The notes under the pieces are model-generated. The model was not told where the DNA came from and searched no databases. It saw only the letters and a program-made list of their open reading frames with translations. This document shows, piece after piece, positions 6,301 to 18,867 of a DNA stretch of 39,014 bases. The DNA lies in assembly GCA_903889915.1 (NCBI GenBank), contig CAISZK010000413.1, positions 1 to 39,014 on the forward strand, read 5' to 3'. This DNA comes from an uncultured Bacteroidota bacterium (GTDB taxonomy: Bacteria > Bacteroidota > Bacteroidia > Bacteroidales > CG2-30-32-10). Numbering within the stretch: the stretch's first letter is position 1; each line of letters starts with the position of its first letter. Position numbers and translations under genes: made by a program.

Positions 6301-6335
6301 ATTGATATCTGAATGGTTTTTTTTTCCTACTTTTG
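6301..6335 (+). promoter_or_regulatory. Candidate promoter of the chemosensory operon
   Basis: TACTTTTG at 6328-6335 fits the Bacteroidetes -7 consensus TAnnTTTG. A weak -33 candidate, ATTG, lies at 6301-6304. The box ends 35 nt before the GTG start of cheW. The same box at the same distance lies in front of the duplicated cheW (10705-10712). Confidence 0.62.
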
Positions 6336-6369: not shown

Positions 6370-6831
6370 GTGGAACAAAACAAACGCATAGTACATTTTA
6401 AAATAAACGGTGATTCGTATGCGCTGCATCTTGACGCAGTTGAACGGGTTGTACATGCAGTTTATGTTACGCCTATACCACGCGCCCCGGAAATAGTGAC
6501 GGGTATTATCAATATTGAGGGTACTGTAATTCCCGTGATTGATGTGAGGAAATGTTTCCGTTTGCCTTTGGTAAAACTGCACCCCGATCACCGGTTTATT
6601 ATTGCCAACAGCGCCAAGCGAAAAGTTGCACTGATGGTTGACAGTGTTGGTGAGGTGATGGAATGTGAACCCGGTGACATTGAAAACGAAAAAACAGTAT
6701 TGCCTGAAATGCCTTTTGTAAAGGGCATTGTCGTTCTTGAAAATGGACTGATACTGATCAATGATATTGATAAATTTTTGTCGCTTGAAGATGAAAAGAT
6801 ACTTGAAGATGCTTTAAACAACCGCCAATAA
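6370..6831 (+). CDS. cheW: CheW coupling protein (WspB-like), copy 1
   Basis: A 153-residue single-domain CheW with a GTG start. Typical core: YALHLDAVERVV, PIPRAPEIVTGIINIEGTVIPVIDVRK, and VDSVGEVMECEPGDIE. It would link an MCP to CheA on the inside of the membrane. The GTG start is supported by the paralogue at 10747, where GTG and the following GAACAAAAC are conserved, and by the conserved 35-nt spacing to the promoter box. First gene of the operon, directly followed by cheR (TAA then ATG with no gap). By eye about 85% identical to the copy at 10747 (23 differences in 153). Confidence 0.95.
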   Translation: MEQNKRIVHFKINGDSYALHLDAVERVVHAVYVTPIPRAPEIVTGIINIEGTVIPVIDVRKCFRLPLVKLHPDHRFIIANSAKRKVALMVDSVGEVMECEPGDIENEKTVLPEMPFVKGIVVLENGLILINDIDKFLSLEDEKILEDALNNRQ

Positions 6832-8352
6832 ATGTTGACAGGATTTGGAAATAACTATCTGCAGGAATTCAGCGATTATATAGCGCTGGAAACGGGTTTG
6901 TTTTTTCCGGAAGAACGCTGGAATGATATGGAGCGAAACCTGAGAAGCATTTCGAAAGATTTTGGCTACAACGACGTGAAGAGTTTTGTGCGATGGATAG
7001 CTTCGGGCAAGTGTTCCAAAGAACAAATAGAGATCATGGCGCATCATCTCACCGTGGGTGAAACGTATTTTTTTCGTGAAAAGAATTGCTTCGAGATATT
7101 GAGAAAACAGTTGATTCCCGAGTTAATTAAACTAAGGGAAAACAATATCCGAACCATACGCATTTGGAGCGCCGGATGCTGCACAGGCGAAGAAGCTTAT
7201 TCTGTGGCGATTTTATTGAAGGAACTCATTCCCGATATTCATCGCTGGTCCATTTCAATTCTGGGCACTGATCTGAATACAAAATTTCTGAAAAAGGCTG
7301 AGAGAGGCATCTATTCAGTGTGGTCGTTTCGCGAAAATTCGGACTGGATACAGGAGAAATATTTTAAGAAACATGGTCATAACGAATTTGAAATCATTCC
7401 TGCCATCCGCAATATGGTGAAGTTTTCGTATCTGAATTTGGTGGAAGATGCGTTTCCCTCGCTGCTGACGGGTACACACAGCATAGATTTTTTGTTTTGC
7501 AGGAATGTGCTGATGTATTTCAGCAACGAAACAGCACGAAAAATTATTAACCGCTTTTATAAATCAATCACCGACGAAGGCTGGCTACTGCTGAGTTCCG
7601 TTGAAACCAATATCATCAGAGACATGCAACTGAATGCTGTGATGATATCGGGACAAACTTTCTACAGGAAAAACCTGGAGAAATATCATGCCGCGGACAG
7701 CAATGTTGCCGAATCTTTTCCTTTTTACACAGACGAAGCAAAAGTTGATGAACTTCCGGTTTTTCATTTTATTGAAGAAGCAAAAGACAATGTAGAAACA
7801 ATAATTCCGGAAGGCATTGTTCATGCAAAAAAAGAAGCGGTACCGGTTGACGGAGATAAAGAGTTATACCGGGAAGCGACAGAAGATTTTGAGCAGGGCA
7901 ATTATGGCAAAGCCATTGAAAAACTACAAACACTGGTATCGAAAAATCACGGCCGCAATGCTGCGGCAGCAATGCTACTGGCAAAATCCTATGCAAATCA
8001 GGGTAATCTTTTGGAAGCATACAACATGATCGAACTGGCTTTGAAAACCGACAGGACCAATGTGGAATATCATTTCTATCATGCTACAATTTTGCAAGCT
8101 GCCGGAAAAATGACAGAAGCCCTCGAATCGTTTCGCAAAGTTTTGTTTCTTGACCACGATCTGGTGGTGGCTCATTTTGCTATTGCCAGCATACTACAGA
8201 ACATTGGCAAGCAAAAAGAGGCGCAGAAGTATTACAACAACAGTCTTTCGCTGCTGGAAAAATATGATGACGATGATGTTCTGACCGCATCGGAAGGAAT
8301 TACTGCAGGAAGATTGAAAAAAATTATTTTAGCTGTAAACCATCATAAATGA
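6832..8352 (+). CDS. cheR: CheR-type MCP methyltransferase with TPR tail (WspC-like)
   Basis: A 506-residue protein. Residues 1-100 form the CheR N-terminal helical domain (FRE segment HLTVGETYFFRE). The methyltransferase follows with the SAM-binding motif IWSAGCCTGEEAYSVA (about 111-126) and FLFCRNVLMYF further on. From about 345 to 490 there are several TPR-like repeats (EDFEQGNYGKAIEKLQTLV, AKSYANQGNLLEAYNMIELAL). It should methylate glutamates on the co-encoded MCPs. CheR with TPRs is typical of Wsp-type and other non-flagellar systems. The start is fixed by the abutting cheW stop. The stop overlaps the next cheW by 4 bp (ATGA). The receptors end in KYKV and lack a C-terminal NWETF-type CheR tether, so docking may use the TPRs (inference). 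Confidence 0.94.
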   Translation: MLTGFGNNYLQEFSDYIALETGLFFPEERWNDMERNLRSISKDFGYNDVKSFVRWIASGKCSKEQIEIMAHHLTVGETYFFREKNCFEILRKQLIPELIKLRENNIRTIRIWSAGCCTGEEAYSVAILLKELIPDIHRWSISILGTDLNTKFLKKAERGIYSVWSFRENSDWIQEKYFKKHGHNEFEIIPAIRNMVKFSYLNLVEDAFPSLLTGTHSIDFLFCRNVLMYFSNETARKIINRFYKSITDEGWLLLSSVETNIIRDMQLNAVMISGQTFYRKNLEKYHAADSNVAESFPFYTDEAKVDELPVFHFIEEAKDNVETIIPEGIVHAKKEAVPVDGDKELYREATEDFEQGNYGKAIEKLQTLVSKNHGRNAAAAMLLAKSYANQGNLLEAYNMIELALKTDRTNVEYHFYHATILQAAGKMTEALESFRKVLFLDHDLVVAHFAIASILQNIGKQKEAQKYYNNSLSLLEKYDDDDVLTASEGITAGRLKKIILAVNHHK

Positions 8353-8990
8353 TCGCGATGCTTAAAGGAAAAAAGGAAAATTTGAAAACACGCAACTTCA
8401 AACGGAGTATGGATGGCATTCACAAAATGGTTGTTGATGCTAATCCAGGCTCCAATCATATCAATAACGATGATGAAAACAATCTGCGTATTCTGAAACA
8501 ACGGGCAGAACAACTTGCAAAGCCTCCAAGGTCAGAATCGGATGTTGAATTGATTGAGATCATAGAATTCACCATGGCGTATGAAAATTACGGAATTGAA
8601 TCCGAATGGATACGCGAAATCTATACTTTGAAAGAGATAGTACCAATTCCGGGGACGCCGGCTTTTGTTATGGGAATTACCAATGTACGCGGGCAAATAC
8701 TCTCGGTGATTGACATGAAGAAACTGTTTGAACTTCCTGCCACTGGAATATCTGAAATGAACAAGATCATCATCATCAGAAATAAAGAAATGGAGTTTGG
8801 CTTGCTTGCCGATTTTATTCTTGGAATGAAAAAAGTAAATGTAAACAGTTTACAAAGGCAATTGCCAACACTGACAGGGGTACGGGCCAAATATCTGCTG
8901 GGCATTTCTTCTGATAAGATTATCATCCTTGATGGAGAAAAACTTCTCACAGATAAAGATCTGGTAGTAAATGTAAGAAACGAAAACTAA
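8349..8990 (+). CDS. cheW: CheW with N-terminal extension (WspD-like), copy 1
   Basis: A 213-residue protein. About 65 residues of charged, probably flexible extension (LRILKQRAEQLAKPP) precede a CheW domain (EIIEFTMAYENYGIESEWI, then GITNVRGQILSVIDMKKLFEL). A longer second CheW is characteristic of Wsp-type operons. The ATG at 8349 overlaps the cheR stop. The second ATG at 8358 (MLKGKK) matches the only start available in the paralogue at 11265, so it may be the true one (210 residues). Beyond residue 44 or so the two copies differ at very few positions, while the first 40 are divergent. Confidence 0.92.
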   Translation: MIAMLKGKKENLKTRNFKRSMDGIHKMVVDANPGSNHINNDDENNLRILKQRAEQLAKPPRSESDVELIEIIEFTMAYENYGIESEWIREIYTLKEIVPIPGTPAFVMGITNVRGQILSVIDMKKLFELPATGISEMNKIIIIRNKEMEFGLLADFILGMKKVNVNSLQRQLPTLTGVRAKYLLGISSDKIIILDGEKLLTDKDLVVNVRNEN

Positions 8991-9026: not shown

Positions 9027-10661
9027 ATGAAATGGTTTATTAACTTGAAAATCCGCTCAAAAATGTTCCTCTCATTAGGAATATTATTTGCATTAGCTGT
9101 AATTACGATCGGTCTGGCAATTTTGACAATATCTGAAATATCCGATTCTCAAAAAACAATAAATGAGGTTAATGTTGTTGCTCTTGAAAATATGTATAAG
9201 ATAGAATCAGGACTGAAAGATAATCGTGAATATATCCATGAGATGACAGATTCAAAAGATGCTGTTGCATTTCAAAAATTGCAAAAAAAGATTGATGATG
9301 AAGAAGCCAACATAAATACACTTTTGTCAGAATCAATGAAGTTGAATACAAATGACACTGCCGGAACCCGTTTATTAAAAAGGTTTGAAACCAACTGGCT
9401 CGTTTATACAAAACAGACAGGTGAGGAAATAAAATTATTAAACACGGGCAAAATAGCAGAAGCTAAATCAGTGGGGGATGAAATTCACAAAGATTTATTT
9501 GAGAATCTTACAGCAGAAATTTTGGCAGTTGCAAATCATATAAAAAGTAAAAATGATTCAATATATCAATCGAACCAAAAACAAATTACACAATTGTACT
9601 ACATTGCAGTGGGCTTAGGTTCTTTAGACCTGCTTGATATTATAGCCATTTTATGGGCAATTATTTCTTTAATTGCAGTTCCATTGAAAAAAATCACGTC
9701 ACTCACAGAAAAAGTTGCAGATGGCGAATTCAATGTAGCTGTTGAAACTGTTGACAGAAAAGATGAGATAGGCATACTGATGAGAACCTTTCAGAAAATG
9801 GCAGAAAATCTGAGGAGGATGACAATGGATACGAAAGATGCCGTTAATCTTCTCAGCACTTCTGCAAGCGAAATTCTTGCATCCACAGCACAACTGGCAT
9901 CGGGAGCCACCGAAACTTCTTCGGCTATAACCGAGACCACTACCACAGTGGAAGAAGTGAAACAAACCTCACAGCTTGCTACACAAAAAGCCAAAATGGT
10001 TTCCGACACTGCCAGCAATGCTTCGCAGATCTCTGTTGGCGGAAAAAAATCAGTAGAAGAAACCATGATCATCATGAACAATATTCATGAACAAATGGAA
10101 CTAGTTGCCGAAACCATTGTCAGGCTGAGCGAGCAGAGCCAGTCAATAGGTGAAATAGCAGCGACAGTGAATGATCTGGCTGAACAGTCGAATCTGCTAG
10201 CAGTGAATGCAGCCATAGAAGCGGCAAAAGCAGGTGAACAGGGAAAAGGCTTTGCCGTGGTGGCACAGGAAGTGAAAAGCCTTGCTGAGCAATCAAAACA
10301 GGCTACAACTCAGGTGAGATTAATATTAAATGACGTTCAGAAATCAATCAGTGCAGCGGTAATGGCAACCGAACAGGGAAGCAAAGCCGTGGAATCGGGT
10401 GTTAAACAATCGAAAGAAACAGGTGAGGCAATCAATAATGTGATGTCGTCTATTTCAGAAACATCACAGGCTGCCATACAGATTCTGGCAACAACCCAGC
10501 AACAAATTGTCGGGATGAACCAGGTGGCACAGGCAATGGAGAATATCAATCAGGCAAGTATTCAAAGTTTGTCGAGCACCAAACAGGTTGAGATGGCTGC
10601 ACATACATTGAACGATATGGGCATAAAACTAAAGCAATTGATTGAAAAGTATAAAGTGTAG
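9027..10661 (+). CDS. Methyl-accepting chemotaxis protein, single HAMP
   Basis: A 544-residue MCP. TM1 is about 12-35. A roughly 150-residue helical periplasmic sensor follows, of the four-helix-bundle MCP type. TM2 is about 188-218, HAMP about 218-266. The long coiled-coil signalling domain has its hairpin tip at about 375-415 ([20 protein letters not shown]). It ends in LIEKYKV with no NWETF pentapeptide. Compared with the paralogue at 11926 it lacks exactly 42 residues, which in the paralogue form most of a second HAMP-like unit. Ligand unknown. It follows cheW by 36 bp in the same operon. Confidence 0.95.
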
Positions 10662-10678: not shown

Positions 10679-10712
10679 TTTGAGATCAGTATAATTTTTT
10701 TCTATACTTTTG
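10679..10712 (+). promoter_or_regulatory. Candidate internal promoter of the duplicated block
   Basis: TTTG at 10679-10682 and TACTTTTG at 10705-10712 match Bacteroidetes -33 and -7 boxes with a 22-nt spacer. The -7 box ends 35 nt before the GTG start, exactly as in the first copy, so the duplication carried its promoter. The neighbouring text TTTTGTTTTCA and CAGGCNTGTGGAACAAAAC is conserved too. Confidence 0.62.
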
Positions 10713-10746: not shown

Positions 10747-11208
10747 GTGGAACAAAACTTACGCATTGTAATCTTTAAAATAAACGGTGATTCGTATGCG
10801 CTGCCTCTTGAAGCAGTTAAGCGGGTTATACACGCTGTTTATATTACACCTATACCCCGTGCCCCGGAAATAGTGACGGGTATCATCAATATTGAGGGTA
10901 CTGTAATTCCGGTGATTGACCTGAGAAAATGTTTCCGCCTGCCACCGGTAAAACTGCATCCCGATCACCGGTTTATCATTGCCAACAGTGCAACACGAAA
11001 AGTTGCACTTATTGCCGATAGTGTAGGCGAAGTGATGGAATGTGAACCCGGCGACATTGAAAACGAAAAAACTGTATTGCCCGAAATGCCTTTTGTAAAG
11101 GGTATTATTGCTATTGAAAAAGGTGTGATACTGATCAACGATATTGATAAATTTCTGTCACTTGAAGAAGAAAAGATGCTAGATGAGGCGTTAAGCAACC
11201 AACAATAA
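10747..11208 (+). CDS. cheW: CheW coupling protein (WspB-like), copy 2
   Basis: A 153-residue CheW, same length and GTG start as the copy at 6370, with about 130 of 153 residues identical by eye. Changes are mostly conservative (V/I, D/E, L/I), which suggests both copies are under selection. It sits 85 bp after the first MCP and starts the second cheW-cheW-mcp block. It is followed by a 15-codon cheR scar instead of cheR. Confidence 0.95.
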   Translation: MEQNLRIVIFKINGDSYALPLEAVKRVIHAVYITPIPRAPEIVTGIINIEGTVIPVIDLRKCFRLPPVKLHPDHRFIIANSATRKVALIADSVGEVMECEPGDIENEKTVLPEMPFVKGIIAIEKGVILINDIDKFLSLEEEKMLDEALSNQQ

Positions 11209-11256
11209 ATGATCACAAGGCTTGAAAAAAATATTTTAGATGTAAACCATAATTAA
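11209..11256 (+). pseudogene. In-frame scar of a deleted cheR copy
   Basis: A 15-codon frame, MITRLEKNILDVNHN, sits exactly where cheR sits in the first block. It starts on the ATG that abuts the cheW stop, like cheR. Its first three residues parallel MLT of CheR. Residues 4-15 align without gaps to the CheR C-terminus (RLKKIILAVNHH). The DNA around both ends is also conserved, including ATCGCGATGCT before the next cheW. The simplest reading is an internal in-frame deletion of about 490 codons after duplication. Whether the micro-frame is translated is unknown; it could keep ribosomes moving to the next cheW. Confidence 0.85.
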
Positions 11257-11264
11257 TTATCGCG

Positions 11265-11897
11265 ATGCTAAAAGGGAAAAAAGAAAATTTGAAAACACAC
11301 GACTTAAGCCGGAGTATGGATGATCTTCATAAAACGAATGATCCTGCATATCCCGACTCCTTTAAGGTCAATAACGATGATGAAAACAATCTGCGTATTC
11401 TGAAAAAACGAGCAGAACAACTTGCCAAGCCTCCCAAATCAGAATCAGATGTTGAATTGATTGAGATCATAGAATTCACCATGGCGTATGAAAATTACGG
11501 AATTGAATCCGAATGGATACGCGAGATCTATACCTTGAAAGAAATAGTACCTATTCCGGGGACACCGGCTTTTGTTATGGGTATAACGAATGTGCGCGGG
11601 CAAATACTTTCAGTGATTGACATGAAGAAACTGTTTGAACTTCCTGCCACAGGAATATCTGAAATGAACAAGATCATCATCATCAGGAATAAAGATATGG
11701 AGTTTGGCTTGCTTGCAGATTTTATTCTTGGGATGAAAAAGGTAAATGTAAACAGTTTACAAAGGCAGTTGCCAACACTGACCGGGGTAAGGGCCAAATA
11801 TCTGCTGGGCATTTCACCTGAGAAAGTGATCATCCTTGACGGGGCAAAACTCCTTACAGATAAAGATCTGGTAGTAAATGTAAGAAATGAAAATTAA
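11265..11897 (+). CDS. cheW: CheW with N-terminal extension (WspD-like), copy 2
   Basis: A 210-residue paralogue of the gene at 8349. By eye there are 22 differences in 210, of which 15 lie in the first 40 residues. The CheW domain itself is almost unchanged (FVMGITNVRGQILSVIDMKK is identical). The start is ATG in MLKGKK; upstream in-frame codons give no alternative ATG. The cheR scar ends 8 bp before it. The variable extension could set which complex each copy joins (inference). Confidence 0.93.
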   Translation: MLKGKKENLKTHDLSRSMDDLHKTNDPAYPDSFKVNNDDENNLRILKKRAEQLAKPPKSESDVELIEIIEFTMAYENYGIESEWIREIYTLKEIVPIPGTPAFVMGITNVRGQILSVIDMKKLFELPATGISEMNKIIIIRNKDMEFGLLADFILGMKKVNVNSLQRQLPTLTGVRAKYLLGISPEKVIILDGAKLLTDKDLVVNVRNEN

Positions 11898-11925: not shown

Positions 11926-13686
11926 ATGAAATGGTATATTAACATGAAAATCCGCTCAAAAATGTTCCTCTCATTAGGAATATTATTTGTATTAGCTGTA
12001 ATTACAATCGGTCTGGCACTTGTGACAATATCTGAAATATCCGATTCTCAAAAAACAATGAATAATGTTAATGTTGTTGATCTTGAAAATATGTATAAGA
12101 TAGAATCAGGGTTGCACCGCAATCTTGAAAACATACATGAGATGATGGGATCGAATGATGTCGCCGCCATTCAGAAATTACTAAAAAAAATTGATGATGA
12201 AGAAGCCAATATAAATACACTTTTAACCGGGTCGTTGAAATTGAATTCAGAAGACACTGCCGGAACCCGTTTGTTGAAAAGATTTGAAACAAACTGGCTC
12301 ATTTATACAAAGCAAACTGATGAGGAAATAAAATTGATAAATACTGGCAAACTTGAAGATGCTAAATTAATGGGAGATGAGATTCATAAAAACTCTTTTG
12401 AGAAGCTTATAAACGATATTTTTGTTGTCGCTAATCGGGCAAAAGGCAAAAATGATTCAATTTATCAATCGAACCAAAAACAAATTACAAAACTATACTT
12501 CATTGCAGTGGGTTTAGGTTCTTTAGACCTGATAGATATTATAGCCATTTTATGGTCAATTATTACGCTGATTGGAATTCCTTTGACTAAAATTACAGTT
12601 CTCACAGAAAAGGTTTCAGAAGGAGATTTCAATGTAGCTGTTGAAAGTGTTGACAGAAAAGATGAGATCGGTATTTTGATGAGAACCTTTCAAAAAATGG
12701 TGGATGGCTTTAAAGATATGTCAGTTTCAGCCAACCGTATGGCATCAGGCGATCTGTCAATAAAGATGAATAATGAAAAGCATGAAAATGATACAGGCAT
12801 GTTGACGAAACCATTGCGACAGATGGAAGAAAATCTGAGGAAGATCACTATAGATACCAAAGAAGCCGTTAATCTGCTCAACACTTCAGCAAGCGAAATT
12901 CTTGCATCCACAGCTCAACTGGCATCGGGTGCAAGCGAAACTTCATCCGCTATCACCGAAACCACGACCACGGTGGAAGAAGTGAAACAAACTTCACAGT
13001 TAGCTACCCAAAAAGCAAAAATGGTTTCCGACACTGCCAATAATGCATCACAGATCTCTGTTGGCGGGAAAAAATCAGTGGAGGAAACCATGATCATTAT
13101 GAACCGTATTCATGAACAAATGGAACTGGTGGCCGAAACCATTGTCAGGCTCAGTGAACAAAGTCAGTCAATAGGTGAAATAGCAGCAACAGTGAATGAC
13201 CTGGCCGAACAGTCGAATTTGCTTGCTGTGAATGCAGCCATTGAAGCGGCAAAAGCAGGAGAACAGGGTAAAGGTTTTGCTGTGGTGGCACAGGAAGTGA
13301 AAAGCCTTGCAGAGCAATCAAAACAGGCCACTGCACAGGTTAGAGTAATATTGAATGATGTGCAGAAATCCATCAGCGCAGCAGTGATGGCAACCGAGCA
13401 GGGAAGCAAAGCCGTGGAATCGGGTGTTAAACAATCCAAGGAAACTGGAGAATCAATAAGCAATGTGATGTCGTCCATATCCGAAACATCACAGGCAGCA
13501 ACACAGATCCTGGCAACCACTCAGCAACAAATTGTCGGTATGAACCAGGTGGCACAGGCTATGGAGAATATCAAACAGGCAAGTATTCAGAGTTTGTCGA
13601 GCACCAAACAGGTTGAGATGGCTGCACGCAATTTGAATGAAATGGGTATAAAACTGAAACAATTGATTGAACAGTATAAAGTGTAA
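11926..13686 (+). CDS. Methyl-accepting chemotaxis protein, tandem HAMP
   Basis: A 586-residue MCP with the same plan as the one at 9027: TM1 about 12-35, helical periplasmic sensor, TM2 about 188-218, HAMP, signalling domain ending in LIEQYKV. After FQKM (about residue 258) it carries an extra 42 residues ending in RQM. They include [10 protein letters not shown] and [10 protein letters not shown], features of a second HAMP (connector plus second helix). The periplasmic part differs more from the paralogue than the signalling part, so ligand specificity may have shifted while CheA/CheW contacts stayed the same. Confidence 0.95.
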
Positions 13687-13689
13687 TCA

Positions 13690-13829
13690 GTCATTGGTCA
13701 TTGGTCATTAGTCATTGGTCATTGGTTAATGACTACTGACTTTTGACTTTTGACAATTGACTAATGACTACTGACTATTGACTAATGACTACTGACTATT
13801 GACCATTGACTATTGACAAATGACTATTG
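13690..13829. repeat. Phase-locked heptamer array, 20 units
   Basis: Twenty consecutive 7-bp units fill the whole spacer between the MCP stop and cheA. The first six are of the type GTCATTG. The remaining fourteen are of the type ACTATTG, ACTAATG or ACTACTG. The second type is close to the complement of the first, so the array can fold back on itself. The last unit ends at 13829, so the cheA initiation region directly abuts the array. Confidence 0.92.
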
Positions 13830-13832
13830 ACC

Positions 13833-16112
13833 GTGAAACAGCAAGATGAAAAATTTTTAAAGATGCTGCTCGAAACGTTTAGGATAGAAGCGGAAGAGCG
13901 GTTGGGAAACATTTCTCATGCCCTTTTTGAACTCGAAAAAGAAGAGTTGCCTGAAAAGCAAGAGGGTTTGATAGAGGCTACTTTTCGTGAATTCCATAGT
14001 TTGAAAGGAGCTGCACGCAGTGTAAACCTTAGCAGTGTTGAAAAAATTTGCCAGGCTGCCGAAAGTGTCTTTTCACGACTTAAAAGCAAACAGTTACAAA
14101 TAACTGACGTCATCCTTGATGAAATTATTAAATGTGTTGATTGCATTAAGGATTTGATGAATCCTGAAAAACACTACCTGCAAAGTGAGATGTCGGCAAG
14201 AGCGTTGAAATTGTCTGTCCGGCTTGAACAGGCTGCAAGAGGTGAATTTTTAGAAAAAGATGTTGCAGAAGATTTACCTGTTGAAAATAGCGAAGAATCA
14301 GAGAACGAAAAATATACTTCTACAGATTCTACAGTCCGTATTTCAATCGTAACTCTCGATTTGCTCATGCAGCAGGTGGAGGAACTACGTTCTATAAAAC
14401 TGATGGAAAAAGATCAGGGCATTGAAGTGAAAAAAATATTAGACGATTTCGAAGCTATCAGAAAAATTTTACTAAAGAATAAAGTCAATATCAGATCGGT
14501 GCGAAGCGCTATCAAAAAATCGAACAGCGATAGCGCCAATGTTTATATTCCCCAGGTTTCAACTATTTTTGATATCCATGAACAGTCCGAAACACTGATC
14601 AAAACCCTCGCCCACAAAGTAAAACTTATCAGTGACAAAGCAGAGCATAACTATCGTGCCATAGAAAGCCAGATCGAAGGACTTACACAGGATATGAAAA
14701 AAGTGATGATGATGCCTTTTTCACTATTGCTGCAGTCATTTCCAATGATAGTAAGAGATCTGTCACGGCACCAGGAAAAACAGGTTGAACTGGTAATTGA
14801 GGGTGATAATATTGAAACAGACAGAAGAATATTGGATGAACTGAAATATCCTCTCATCCATCTCGTACGTAATTGCATTGACCATGGCATTGAAACCCCT
14901 GCCATAAGATTGAAAAAAGGCAAACCTGCACAGGCAAAAATTAAGATCAGCATTTCCCAGATTGATAGCTCTACTGCCGAAGTTCTAATTTCAGACGATG
15001 GTTCAGGAATTGACATTGAAAAACTACGCAACACTGTAAGAAACAAAATCAGCGACGCTGATATTAACGTTGATGAATACACCGAAAAAGAACTGCTTCC
15101 TTTTATTTTTTATTCAGGTATTTCCACCAAACAGGATATTACTGCTATTTCAGGCAGGGGATTAGGGCTTGCCATTGTCCGTGAAAAAACCGAAGGATTG
15201 GGTGGTACTATTTCGCTTTCAACTGAAAAAGATAAAGGCACTACCTTTAAGATACAGCTTCCTTTCAACCTTGCTTCTTTTCATGGTGTTGAAGTTATCA
15301 TTGCCGGTCAGAATTACCTGTTGCCAACCATTTATGTCGAGAGGGTTCTGGCTATACCTAAAGAACAAGTTGTTTCGCTCGAAAACCGTCAGGCAATTGA
15401 TGTTGAAGGCAAAGCTGTTTCATTGATGCCTCTTGCTCAAATTCTGGGTATTGAAAATAACACCTCAAATGCCAACAATGATGACAAACTTTCTGTTGTT
15501 GTTCTCAAAACAGCAGGCAGAAGGATAGCTTTTTTGATTGATAAAATTGTCGGGGAGCAGGAAGTATTGGTTAAAAAACTGGGAAGTCAGTTAAAAGTTG
15601 TCAGGAATATTTTGGGAGCCACTATACTTGGAAACGGCAAAATTGTGCCGGTTTTGAATGTTCCTGACATTTTAAATTTCTCGGAAAACACTTCATTCAC
15701 CATTCATAATTTATTTAACCCGCAGGAAGTAATGAGCACATCAAAAAAGAGAATAAACATCATGGTTGCCGAAGATTCCATCACATCGCGAATGATGTTG
15801 AAAAATATTCTCGAATCGGCAGGCTACAATGTAACAACTGCCATTGATGGTCTGGATGCTTACGAACAACTGGCATCGGGTGGTTACGACCTGGTTGTTT
15901 CAGATGTTGACATGCCGCGCATGAGTGGTTTTACACTTACTGAAAAAGTGAGAGGCGATAAAAGATTCTCTGATCTGCCCGTTATCCTGGTTACAGCCCT
16001 CGAATCAAAAGAGGACAGGGAGCGTGGTATAGACGTCGGCGCAAACGCTTATGTGGTGAAACGAAGCTTTGACCAAAGCAACTTACTCGATATTATTAAG
16101 AAAATTATTTAA
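13833..16112 (+). CDS. cheA: CheA histidine kinase with C-terminal receiver (WspE-like)
   Basis: About 759 residues from the GTG at 13833; a TTG at 13827 lies inside the heptamer array and is less likely. An Hpt domain comes first with phospho-acceptor His about 55 in EFHSLKGAARSV. A dimerisation/linker region follows with no clear CheY-binding P2 domain. The ATPase has LVRNCIDHGIE (N box), DDGSGID and GRGLGLAIV. A CheW-like P5 domain spans about 485-620. A receiver occupies about 640-759 with acidic pocket VAED, Asp about 691 in SDVDMP, and Lys about 743 followed by Arg rather than the usual Pro. It takes signals from both MCPs through the CheWs and can phosphorylate its own receiver, CheB, and perhaps the downstream receiver-kinase. 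Confidence 0.94.
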   Translation: MKQQDEKFLKMLLETFRIEAEERLGNISHALFELEKEELPEKQEGLIEATFREFHSLKGAARSVNLSSVEKICQAAESVFSRLKSKQLQITDVILDEIIKCVDCIKDLMNPEKHYLQSEMSARALKLSVRLEQAARGEFLEKDVAEDLPVENSEESENEKYTSTDSTVRISIVTLDLLMQQVEELRSIKLMEKDQGIEVKKILDDFEAIRKILLKNKVNIRSVRSAIKKSNSDSANVYIPQVSTIFDIHEQSETLIKTLAHKVKLISDKAEHNYRAIESQIEGLTQDMKKVMMMPFSLLLQSFPMIVRDLSRHQEKQVELVIEGDNIETDRRILDELKYPLIHLVRNCIDHGIETPAIRLKKGKPAQAKIKISISQIDSSTAEVLISDDGSGIDIEKLRNTVRNKISDADINVDEYTEKELLPFIFYSGISTKQDITAISGRGLGLAIVREKTEGLGGTISLSTEKDKGTTFKIQLPFNLASFHGVEVIIAGQNYLLPTIYVERVLAIPKEQVVSLENRQAIDVEGKAVSLMPLAQILGIENNTSNANNDDKLSVVVLKTAGRRIAFLIDKIVGEQEVLVKKLGSQLKVVRNILGATILGNGKIVPVLNVPDILNFSENTSFTIHNLFNPQEVMSTSKKRINIMVAEDSITSRMMLKNILESAGYNVTTAIDGLDAYEQLASGGYDLVVSDVDMPRMSGFTLTEKVRGDKRFSDLPVILVTALESKEDRERGIDVGANAYVVKRSFDQSNLLDIIKKII

Positions 16113-16122
16113 AAAGACTTTT

Positions 16123-17169
16123 ATGATTAACCTGCTGATAGTTGATGACTCAGCCGTAGCAAGAACATTTCTGAATTATATTTTTTCACTCGATCCCGAC
16201 ATCAGGGTAGTGGGCATTGCCCGAAGTGGAATTGAAGCCCTTGAACTGGTCAAACGAAACAAACCCAACGTAATTTCCATGGACATTCACATGCCTGTGA
16301 TGGATGGGTTTGAGACTACGAGGAAAATTATGGAGACCTTTCCCACCCCCATTGTTCTTGTGAGCCAAAGCATGAACATCACCGAGGTTTCTATTGCTTA
16401 TAAATCCATTGAAGCAGGCGCTCTGGCATGTGTGGCGCGACCTGTAAGCATTGATCATCCCGATTTTGAAAAAGGCGCCAAAGAGCTTATTCAGACTATC
16501 AAACTTATGTCGGAGGTGAAGCTTGTGCGACGCTGGGCCAAAAAAGAAGGGCCAACAGAAACGCATACCGAAGCTGTTGCTAAAAAAAACGATTTCGTTA
16601 TCCCTGCCAATCATGTCAGCCTGCTTGCAATCGGCGCTTCTACAGGCGGACCTTCGGTGATACTTGAAATTCTTTCAGGGATCTCAAAAAATATTCCGTT
16701 CCCCGTGCTTATCACCCAACACATGTCGCCCGGATTTGAGCAGGGTTTTGCTGACTGGCTTTCACATTCCAGCGGCTTACCTGTTTCCATTGCAATGCAC
16801 GAAGAACGACCGGTTAAAGGTCATGTGTATCTTGCCCCTACAAATTTTAATATGGGGGTGAATGCCAAAGGTCAGATCACACTTTCAAAAGCAAAAGCCA
16901 ACCAGCATATTTGCCCCTCAATAGATTTTCTCTTCCAATCTGTTTCAAGAGTTTATGGCGGTTCGGCTGTTGCGATAATTCTTTCGGGTATGGGAAGTGA
17001 TGGCGCATGCGGCATGAAACTGTTGTACGACAAAGGCGCCGTCACCATTGCGCAGGACGAAAAAAGCTGTGTGGTATATGGTATGCCCAAAGAGGCGATC
17101 AATGCACAGGCAGTAAAATATGTGTTACCCCCAACGGAAATTTCGGAATTTATTAATTCGATTATTTAA
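16123..17169 (+). CDS. cheB: CheB protein-glutamate methylesterase (WspF-like)
   Basis: A 348-residue protein from ATG 16123 (MINLLIVDDS). An in-frame upstream extension reaches back over the cheA end but adds no domain. Receiver at 1-125 with Asp about 54 (SMDIHMPVMDG). The methylesterase domain has Ser about 173 in GASTGGPS, His about 200 in TQHMSPGF, and Asp about 293 in GMGSDG, the known CheB catalytic triad. It removes methyl groups from the MCPs when phosphorylated by CheA, closing the adaptation loop with CheR. The gap to cheA is 10 bp. Confidence 0.95.
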   Translation: MINLLIVDDSAVARTFLNYIFSLDPDIRVVGIARSGIEALELVKRNKPNVISMDIHMPVMDGFETTRKIMETFPTPIVLVSQSMNITEVSIAYKSIEAGALACVARPVSIDHPDFEKGAKELIQTIKLMSEVKLVRRWAKKEGPTETHTEAVAKKNDFVIPANHVSLLAIGASTGGPSVILEILSGISKNIPFPVLITQHMSPGFEQGFADWLSHSSGLPVSIAMHEERPVKGHVYLAPTNFNMGVNAKGQITLSKAKANQHICPSIDFLFQSVSRVYGGSAVAIILSGMGSDGACGMKLLYDKGAVTIAQDEKSCVVYGMPKEAINAQAVKYVLPPTEISEFINSII

Positions 17170-17184
17170 TTAAAAAATTTGATC

Positions 17185-18462
17185 ATGGACAAAACAGACA
17201 AAATGATTTTAATCGCAGAAGACAGTCCTACACAGGCTGCCACGCTCGAACATTTATTAACATCGGCAGGATATCCTGTTATTGTAGCGTCTAACGGAAA
17301 GCAGGCTTATGAAGAAGCTTTGAACCACAAGTTCCATTTAATTATCAGCGACATTATGATGCCCGAAATGAATGGCTACGAATTGTGCCATGCCATCAAG
17401 GCAAATCCGGATCTGAAGCGACTGCCTGTGTTGTTGCTTACTTCATTTACCGAATCCAACAGTTTGCTGAATGCGTTGAAAGCCGGAGCCGAATTTTTTA
17501 TCACCAAACCTTACAAAGATGAGGTGCTTTTGCGCAAGGTTGAATCGCTTATCAATAACCCGGTAAAGGGATTTGCAGAGTTTCCGGGCAACAAGTTTTT
17601 TATTTCCGAATTCAATAAGCTTTTGGATTATGTGGACGAGCGCAACAAGACCGTTAATTTCTTCATGTCCACCTTCGAATTTCTCAAAGATCAGAATGAT
17701 CAGCTTTCCGAAGCCGAAGAGTCATTGAGAGAATTGAATCAAAAACTGGTTGACCTCAACAGTACCAAAGATAAACTCTTTTCAATCATTGCCCATGATC
17801 TGAGAAGCCCTTTTGTCGGCATTTTGGGATTGACTGAACTGCTGATCGGCAACATCAAAAATGTGGATCCTGCTACGGCTGAAGATTATATCAGCGATAT
17901 ACACTCTGCTGCCAAACAGACTTTCACTTTGCTTGAAAACCTGCTTGCATGGGCCAAAACCCAAACAGGACAAATTGATTTCAAGCCTGAAACCATTAAC
18001 CTGAAAGGTATTGTTGAGGAAGTTGTTGCCGTGTTGAGTTATCCGGCACGCATAAAAAACATCTCACTAAACATCGCTCCTTCCGTTGACATTGATGTCT
18101 ATGCCGACCAGAACATGCTGAAGACCATACTGCAAAACCTGGTTTCAAATGCCATTAAATTTACCAGGCCCGAAGGTACAATTGAAATTACCGCCACTCC
18201 AAACCATAGCTCTGTTGAAATTTCCGTAAATGACAATGGAATTGGCATCAGCGATGAAAACAAAAACAAGCTTTTCCGTCTCGACAGCAATGTATCAACC
18301 TATGGCACCGCCGACGAGAAAGGTTCAGGACTGGGGCTGGTGCTTTGCAAGGAATTTATTGAAAAACACGGAGGAAATATCAGGGTTGTCAGCGATGTGG
18401 GAAAAGGAAGTGAGTTTAAAATAAAGCTGCCGTATCAGAACACGGGAATGCAGGTGACATAG
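17185..18462 (+). CDS. Receiver-histidine kinase, likely output of the chemosensory system
   Basis: A 425-residue soluble protein from ATG 17185; a TTG six bases upstream is less likely. N-terminal receiver with Asp about 56 (SDIMMPEMNG) and Lys in ITKPY. A coiled-coil linker spans about 155-195. HisKA follows with His about 204 in FSIIAHDLRSP, then HATPase with LVSNAIKFT, DNGIGI and GSGLGL. No transmembrane segment, so its input is presumably phosphorylation of its receiver. It is the last gene of the operon, where Pseudomonas wsp operons have WspR (receiver plus GGDEF). The gap to cheB is 15 bp. Its own target regulator is not encoded nearby. Confidence 0.9.
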   Translation: MDKTDKMILIAEDSPTQAATLEHLLTSAGYPVIVASNGKQAYEEALNHKFHLIISDIMMPEMNGYELCHAIKANPDLKRLPVLLLTSFTESNSLLNALKAGAEFFITKPYKDEVLLRKVESLINNPVKGFAEFPGNKFFISEFNKLLDYVDERNKTVNFFMSTFEFLKDQNDQLSEAEESLRELNQKLVDLNSTKDKLFSIIAHDLRSPFVGILGLTELLIGNIKNVDPATAEDYISDIHSAAKQTFTLLENLLAWAKTQTGQIDFKPETINLKGIVEEVVAVLSYPARIKNISLNIAPSVDIDVYADQNMLKTILQNLVSNAIKFTRPEGTIEITATPNHSSVEISVNDNGIGISDENKNKLFRLDSNVSTYGTADEKGSGLGLVLCKEFIEKHGGNIRVVSDVGKGSEFKIKLPYQNTGMQVT

Positions 18463-18572
18463 GGAATATCTTCTCAATCAAAAAAGGGACAATGACGTGC
18501 TGCAAATCCGAACTGACAGGCATAATTTTTAAATTTAAGTTTAATTATCAGCAATTTAGCATCACTCCTCTT

Positions 18573-18803
18573 CTCGTGAGCTGCGTAGCTCGTGGAACGA
18601 GCTATGCAGCTCGTGGAACGAGCTATGCAGCTCATGGAAGGAGCTATGCAGCTCATGGAAGGAGCTATGCAGCTCGTGGAAGGAGCTATGCAGCTCGTGG
18701 AAGGAGCTATGCAGCTCATGGAAGGAGCTATGCAGCTCGAGGAACGAGCTATGCAGCTCGTGGTATGAGCTGTGTAGCTCGTGCGGTGAGCTGCAAAGCT
18801 CGT
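18573..18803. repeat. 21-bp minisatellite with internal palindromes, 11 units
   Basis: Eleven units on an exact 21-bp grid, tracked by GCAGCTC or close variants from 18585 to 18795. Consensus unit CTCGTGGAACGAGCTATGCAG. Each unit contains GAGCT-atgc-AGCTC and often CTCGT-gga-ACGAG, so the array can form a string of small hairpins. A last displaced half-unit lies at 18834. Long open frames run through on both strands because the period is a multiple of 3 and lacks stops; they are low-complexity and not accepted as genes. The rest of 18463-18572 shows nothing recognisable. Confidence 0.9.
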
Positions 18804-18867
18804 GCGAAAAGCCACATACAGATGACTATCTGTGCAGCTCATGGGACGGGTACGTAAGCATAATTAT

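Follow-up and report, generated by a model that had tools for sequence, protein, structure and literature searches.

A cheR remnant in the second copy of a duplicated block within a Wsp-like chemosensory cluster of a Bacteroidota bacterium

A duplicated block in a Wsp-like cluster

The window (the whole stretch of DNA analysed, 39,014 nt of contig CAISZK010000413.1 from an uncultured member of the Bacteroidales) contains a Wsp-like chemosensory cluster on the forward strand, in the order cheW-a, cheR-TPR, cheW-b, mcp, then cheW-a, cheW-b, mcp, and finally cheA-REC, cheB and a gene for a REC-histidine kinase. In the first block, cheW-a (6370–6831; Pfam CheW, 1.3e-27) is followed by the sole intact copy of cheR-TPR (6832–8352; Pfam CheR, 2.5e-48, and several TPR models) and by cheW-b (8349–8990; Pfam CheW, 1.2e-25); these three genes occupy the WspB, WspC and WspD positions. 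The cheW-b gene of this copy has two possible starts, one at 8349 in an ATGA that overlaps the cheR stop and one at 8358. The block ends with mcp (9027–10661; 544 aa; Pfam 4HB_MCP, HAMP and MCPsignal). The second block comprises cheW-a (10747–11208; Pfam CheW, 3e-29), a 15-codon frame (11209–11256), cheW-b (11265–11897; Pfam CheW, 4.1e-25) and an mcp gene encoding 586 aa (11926–13686), with 42 aa inserted behind the HAMP domain. Single copies of cheA-REC (13836–16112, WspE position; Pfam Hpt, HATPase_c, CheW and Response_reg), cheB (16120–17169, WspF position; Pfam CheB_methylest, 2.6e-60) and the REC-histidine kinase gene (17185–18462; Pfam Response_reg, HisKA and HATPase_c) follow, all three with approximate starts.

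Promoter-like elements (TACTTTTG) that fit the Bacteroidota -7 consensus TAnnTTTG lie on the forward strand 5′ of both blocks, at 6328–6335 and 10705–10712. In the window, this motif is no more frequent than chance predicts, and the sole support for the elements is their pairing in the two leaders. The stretch TACTTTTGTTTTCA is identical in both leaders at these positions, which suggests that the leader was duplicated along with the block. At the 3′ edge of the block, positions 13687–13830, which separate the second mcp from cheA, hold degenerate short repeats (TCATTGG / ACTATTGACTA), and 3′ of the cluster, positions 18474–18857 hold tandem repeats that are open on both strands (SCIAPSM.. / YAARGRS..).

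As in the Wsp system of Pseudomonas (wspA-F), two different CheW adaptors, a CheR-TPR, one MCP, a CheA-receiver fusion and CheB are clustered (PMC8552884, PMC3447774), and cheR lies between the two cheW genes, as in the Wsp order B-C-D. The present cluster differs from Wsp in that mcp comes after the second cheW instead of first in order, the block is duplicated with cheR gone from copy 2, and a REC-histidine kinase stands in place of a GGDEF output regulator. The ACF-class CheR-TPR clusters share with it a CheR-TPR gene that adjoins multidomain response regulators, including REC-histidine kinases (PMC3447774), whereas the cluster described here carries a second, cheR-less cheW-cheW′-mcp unit in tandem. 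The CheR methyltransferase domain is fused to TPR repeats, two distinct cheW genes, an MCP gene, cheA-REC and cheB share one cluster, and a multidomain response regulator (REC-HisKA-HATPase) is present, which, judging from its position, is probably the output regulator. Neither a WspR-type GGDEF protein nor a WspH regulator is encoded in the cluster, the gene after cheB being a REC-histidine kinase without GGDEF according to Pfam. By gene content, we assign the cluster to the Wsp-like/ACF type and not to Wsp proper.

A cheR remnant between the second pair of cheW genes

The 15-codon frame between the copy-2 cheW genes (hereafter the stub) reads ATG ATC ACA AGG CTT GAA AAA AAT ATT TTA GAT GTA AAC CAT AAT TAA, and its translation is MITRLEKNILDVNHN*. 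The stub ATG starts at the base right after the cheW-a stop, the same place as the cheR ATG in copy 1. DNA comparison with copy 1 identifies the stub as the first ~16 and the last ~32 nt of cheR (6832–8352); under this model of a cheR start joined to a cheR end, 39 of 48 bases match, against maxima of 30 for shuffled stubs and 29 for random 48-mers (n = 5000). The last ~35 bases align with cheR 8314–8349 at a score of 50, compared with maxima of 33 for shuffles against the whole of cheR (n = 2000) and 37 against its end (n = 5000), and the best score of this 3′ part elsewhere in the window is 26. The 5′ part matches cheR at 8 of the 13 bases after the ATG, a value reached by 11 of 1588 window ATGs, and over a longer stretch at 11 of 17, reached by 4 of 1588, with the genuine cheR start included in both counts. 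Both ends of cheR are present in the stub, in order and above chance, and the shuffle and random-sequence nulls rule out a fortuitous likeness. A sequence-only reading of this DNA had claimed a 15-codon frame resembling the start and end of cheR, and had proposed an alignment against shuffled sequence as a check; the frame and the alignment are both confirmed by these values.

The stop of the stub lies one codon earlier than that of cheR, through a change of AAA to TAA. The ATGA overlap that offers a possible cheW-b start in copy 1 is gone from copy 2, and cheW-b of copy 2 must therefore start at 11265. A CheR C-terminal protein HMM did not detect the window stub, because the last codons of cheR are poorly conserved; the evidence is thus the DNA comparison with copy 1.

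The order cheW-a, cheR, cheW-b was found in ~80 loci of many phyla, from GTDB genomes and the order to which the window belongs, nearly always with mcp, cheA and cheB next. Most of these loci come from a search with cheR itself and are thus biased towards sets that carry it. A cheW-b query, free of this bias, retrieved 19 other genomes of the order, among them one that has a set lacking cheR, and gave two weak matches only among 395 genomes of the class outside the order. G004, from the same family, and G171 are the closest relatives and carry a single cheW-cheR-cheW′-mcp block each. Protein identity is 85–90% between copies 1 and 2 of the window and ~47–63% between either copy and G004 or G171; therefore, the duplication postdates the divergence from these relatives. 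Searches of the 60 nearest genomes, of 393 from the order and of 395 from the class found no tandem block, and viral contigs were also negative for the duplicated block.

Since cheR lies between the cheW genes in ~80 loci, the gene is ancestral at this locus; copy 2 has lost it, and copy 1 did not gain it. A later insertion of the gene into copy 1, with the 48-base spacer of copy 2 as the ancestral state, is extremely improbable: the cheR-bearing loci include the single-block relatives, the copy-2 spacer itself holds both cheR ends, and we found no point in favour of such an insertion. Relatives pointing to a later insertion had been named in the sequence-only reading as evidence against a loss from copy 2, and the cheR-bearing loci reject the insertion scenario.

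The net loss in the copy-2 cheR is 1470 nt, exactly 490 codons, and is thus in frame. A breakpoint scan gave 38–39 matches of 48 for junctions throughout bases 8–23 of the stub, at the ends and inside this range, so the junction is placed within the interval 11216–11231. A 5-bp CAGGA repeat (6839 and 8306; 1467 nt apart, in frame) fits at the edge of this interval and is too short for proof. A 9-bp direct repeat, CTGCAGGAA (6859 and 8303), was rejected as the deletion site, being out of frame and misfitting the stub.

We consider, with a probability of about 90%, that the remnant arose by a duplication that included cheR, followed by a large net in-frame loss from copy 2. The sequence-only reading had proposed this same history, and both the cheR ends in the stub and the ~80 relatives with cheR at this place support it. 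The genome is a draft of 476 contigs, in which two near-identical cheR copies might have been collapsed by the assembly; such an artefact is very unlikely, since a collapse would join identical sequence, and the two copies diverge here, at ~9 of 48 bases in the stub and by 10–15% in the flanks.

A second loss of cheR and the state of copy 2

Another genome of the same order, G179, carries on its contig 117 a set of cheW-a, cheW-b, mcp, cheA and cheB without cheR. Its contig 148 retains cheR, cheW-b, mcp and cheA, and the genome has further CheR genes. The spacer between the cheW genes of contig 117 (140 nt; locus L183, 8907–9050) scores 14.9 bits, with one frameshift, against an HMM of the CheR-TPR C-terminus built from 82 relatives. 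None of 400 shuffles reached this score (maximum 9.3), and 2 of 400 random 144-mers exceeded it, both of them within the stretches where cheR meets cheW-b in other loci. If no frameshift is allowed, the match is weak, and 10 of 1000 shuffles are as good. At the start of the spacer, an ATGA overlaps the cheW-a stop, and a micro-frame runs from it for 37 codons. Contig 117 has thus undergone a separate loss of cheR in the same place, and what is left is a frameshifted remnant of the CheR C-terminus. Together, the two losses indicate that cheR was lost from an extra copy of the set at least twice. In both genomes, cheR is missing from the same slot of the extra copy, a remnant lies in the spacer, and cheR is kept in the other set of the genome; the G179 set differs in being dispersed instead of tandem, in having its own CheA and CheB, and in its longer, frameshifted remnant.

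The frameshift in G179 also bears on how the second cheR of the window disappeared. Stepwise decay, by frameshifts and then erosion, with the frame of today open by accident, draws on this parallel and on an alternative gapped alignment that puts a 1-nt indel in an A-run of the stub 3′ part, but a single net deletion plus substitutions suffices without further indels and is simpler, and we regard such decay as rather improbable. Because the relatives searched (393 genomes from the order and 395 from the class, none with a tandem block) gave no intact second cheR, the data fit one deletion, stepwise erosion or a loss during the duplication itself. The simpler history of duplication followed by deletion would have run as follows. 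The cheW-cheR-cheW′-mcp block was duplicated in tandem with its leader in the Wsp-like/ACF cluster of this lineage, and the second cheR was then excised between its first ~6 and last ~10–13 codons by the 490-codon net in-frame deletion, which would leave a stub that is untranslated or briefly translated. Copy 2 persists as an additional receptor with its two adaptors, most likely signalling into the single downstream CheA and CheB. A plausible driver is enzyme balance: doubling cheR without cheB would double the CheR:CheB ratio, and losing the extra cheR would restore it. The cheR-less set of G179, with its own CheA and CheB, does not fit this idea.

The copy-2 genes are intact and under constraint. 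The cheW-a copies share 86% nucleotide identity (dN 0.077, dS 0.49) and the cheW-b copies 89% (dN 0.058, dS 0.37), and the dN/dS of ~0.13–0.16 is accompanied by no general rate increase, with slightly more unique changes in cheW-b of copy 2 (5 versus 0, against G171). The insertion in the copy-2 MCP (42 residues; 12700–12825) has no counterpart in copy 1, G004 or G171. It is six heptads in length, and its first part is HAMP-like below the cut-off.

Two MCPs are encoded in the genome above the Pfam cut-off, both in this cluster. CheR also occurs twice above the cut-off, once as the CheR-TPR described here and once on contig 222, where it shares an open frame with CheB; CheB occurs twice, here and in this CheB-CheR fusion. 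Because there are two receptors and one CheR-TPR, a shared CheR-TPR is the simplest reading. Genome content thus makes it likely that the two receptors share one CheR-TPR methyltransferase, in a genome that is ~96% complete and that, with the CheB-CheR fusion elsewhere, leaves room for other enzymes. The copy-2 receptor would then be methylated, if at all, by the remaining CheR-TPR. Neither MCP has a strict receptor methylation motif, and methylation of either one thus remains putative. Receptor-only duplications (e.g. loci L115, L140 and L043) likewise have one cheR serving two MCPs in one cluster, but there mcp alone is doubled and no loss of cheR is needed.

Spacing of the adaptor genes

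Stop-to-start gaps are 0 nt from cheW-a to the stub and +8 nt from the stub to cheW-b, and without the stub a single gap of +56 nt would separate the two cheW genes. Coupling distances of about -8 to +10 nt have been described, and in reporters little re-initiation or coupling is left at ~20 nt (PMC10666635); translational coupling matters in the chemotaxis operons of E. coli (PMC2716512). Both gaps of the stub fall within this range. In relatives, cheW-a and cheR, and cheR and cheW-b, overlap or touch, with a median gap of -4 nt. Gaps within -17 to +10 nt account for 93% of the cheW-a to cheR junctions and 81% of the cheR to cheW-b junctions, compared with 19% for cheW-b to mcp and 48% for mcp to cheA in the same loci; the nearest-start rule behind these values favours short gaps, and the internal control cheW-b to mcp uses the same rule.

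These distances would allow ribosomes leaving cheW-a to restart at the stub ATG, to stop 15 codons on and to restart at cheW-b, keeping the adaptors in step without CheR. Selection of the stub as such a ribosome bridge concerns its present role and is compatible with the deletion history. The contrast between the cheR junctions and cheW-b to mcp in relatives argues for it, as do the 56-nt gap that would exist without the stub, well over the reporter limit, and the G179 remnant, where an ATGA likewise overlaps the end of cheW-a and the frame runs on for 37 codons. On the other hand, an open frame is expected by chance at ~0.15 overall, given an in-frame deletion in ~1/3 of cases and ~46% open frames when nine substitutions are simulated under neutrality. 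Of the stub codons, the nine 3′ ones that lie clear of the junction show three amino-acid changes and zero silent changes, and the stub peptide is therefore not conserved. Moreover, the short gaps in relatives are partly favoured by the nearest-start rule, the G179 micro-frame stops 30 nt short of the assumed cheW-b start, and other work cited in PMC10666635 reports coupling over longer gaps, so a 56-nt gap may not abolish it. We therefore treat the bridge as a tentative possibility with the balance against it. The suggestion in the sequence-only reading that the frame was kept for coupling between the cheW genes holds for the geometry, while retention for that purpose is a tentative idea. It is unlikely that the in-frame stub was retained to ferry ribosomes between adaptor genes once coupled via the lost cheR, with a parallel in another lineage, so that translation geometry outlives the enzyme.

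The stub is an ordinary gene-loss remnant after duplication that happens to keep its neighbours near enough for linked translation. No close parallel emerged from a search of the literature on gene remnants after tandem duplication. The locus offers a clear example of an extra receptor unit joining a chemosensory array without doubling the methyltransferase, and the order holds a second, independent case. Should the stub truly bridge ribosomes, the spacing needed for coupling could be selected even after loss of the gene that supplied it.
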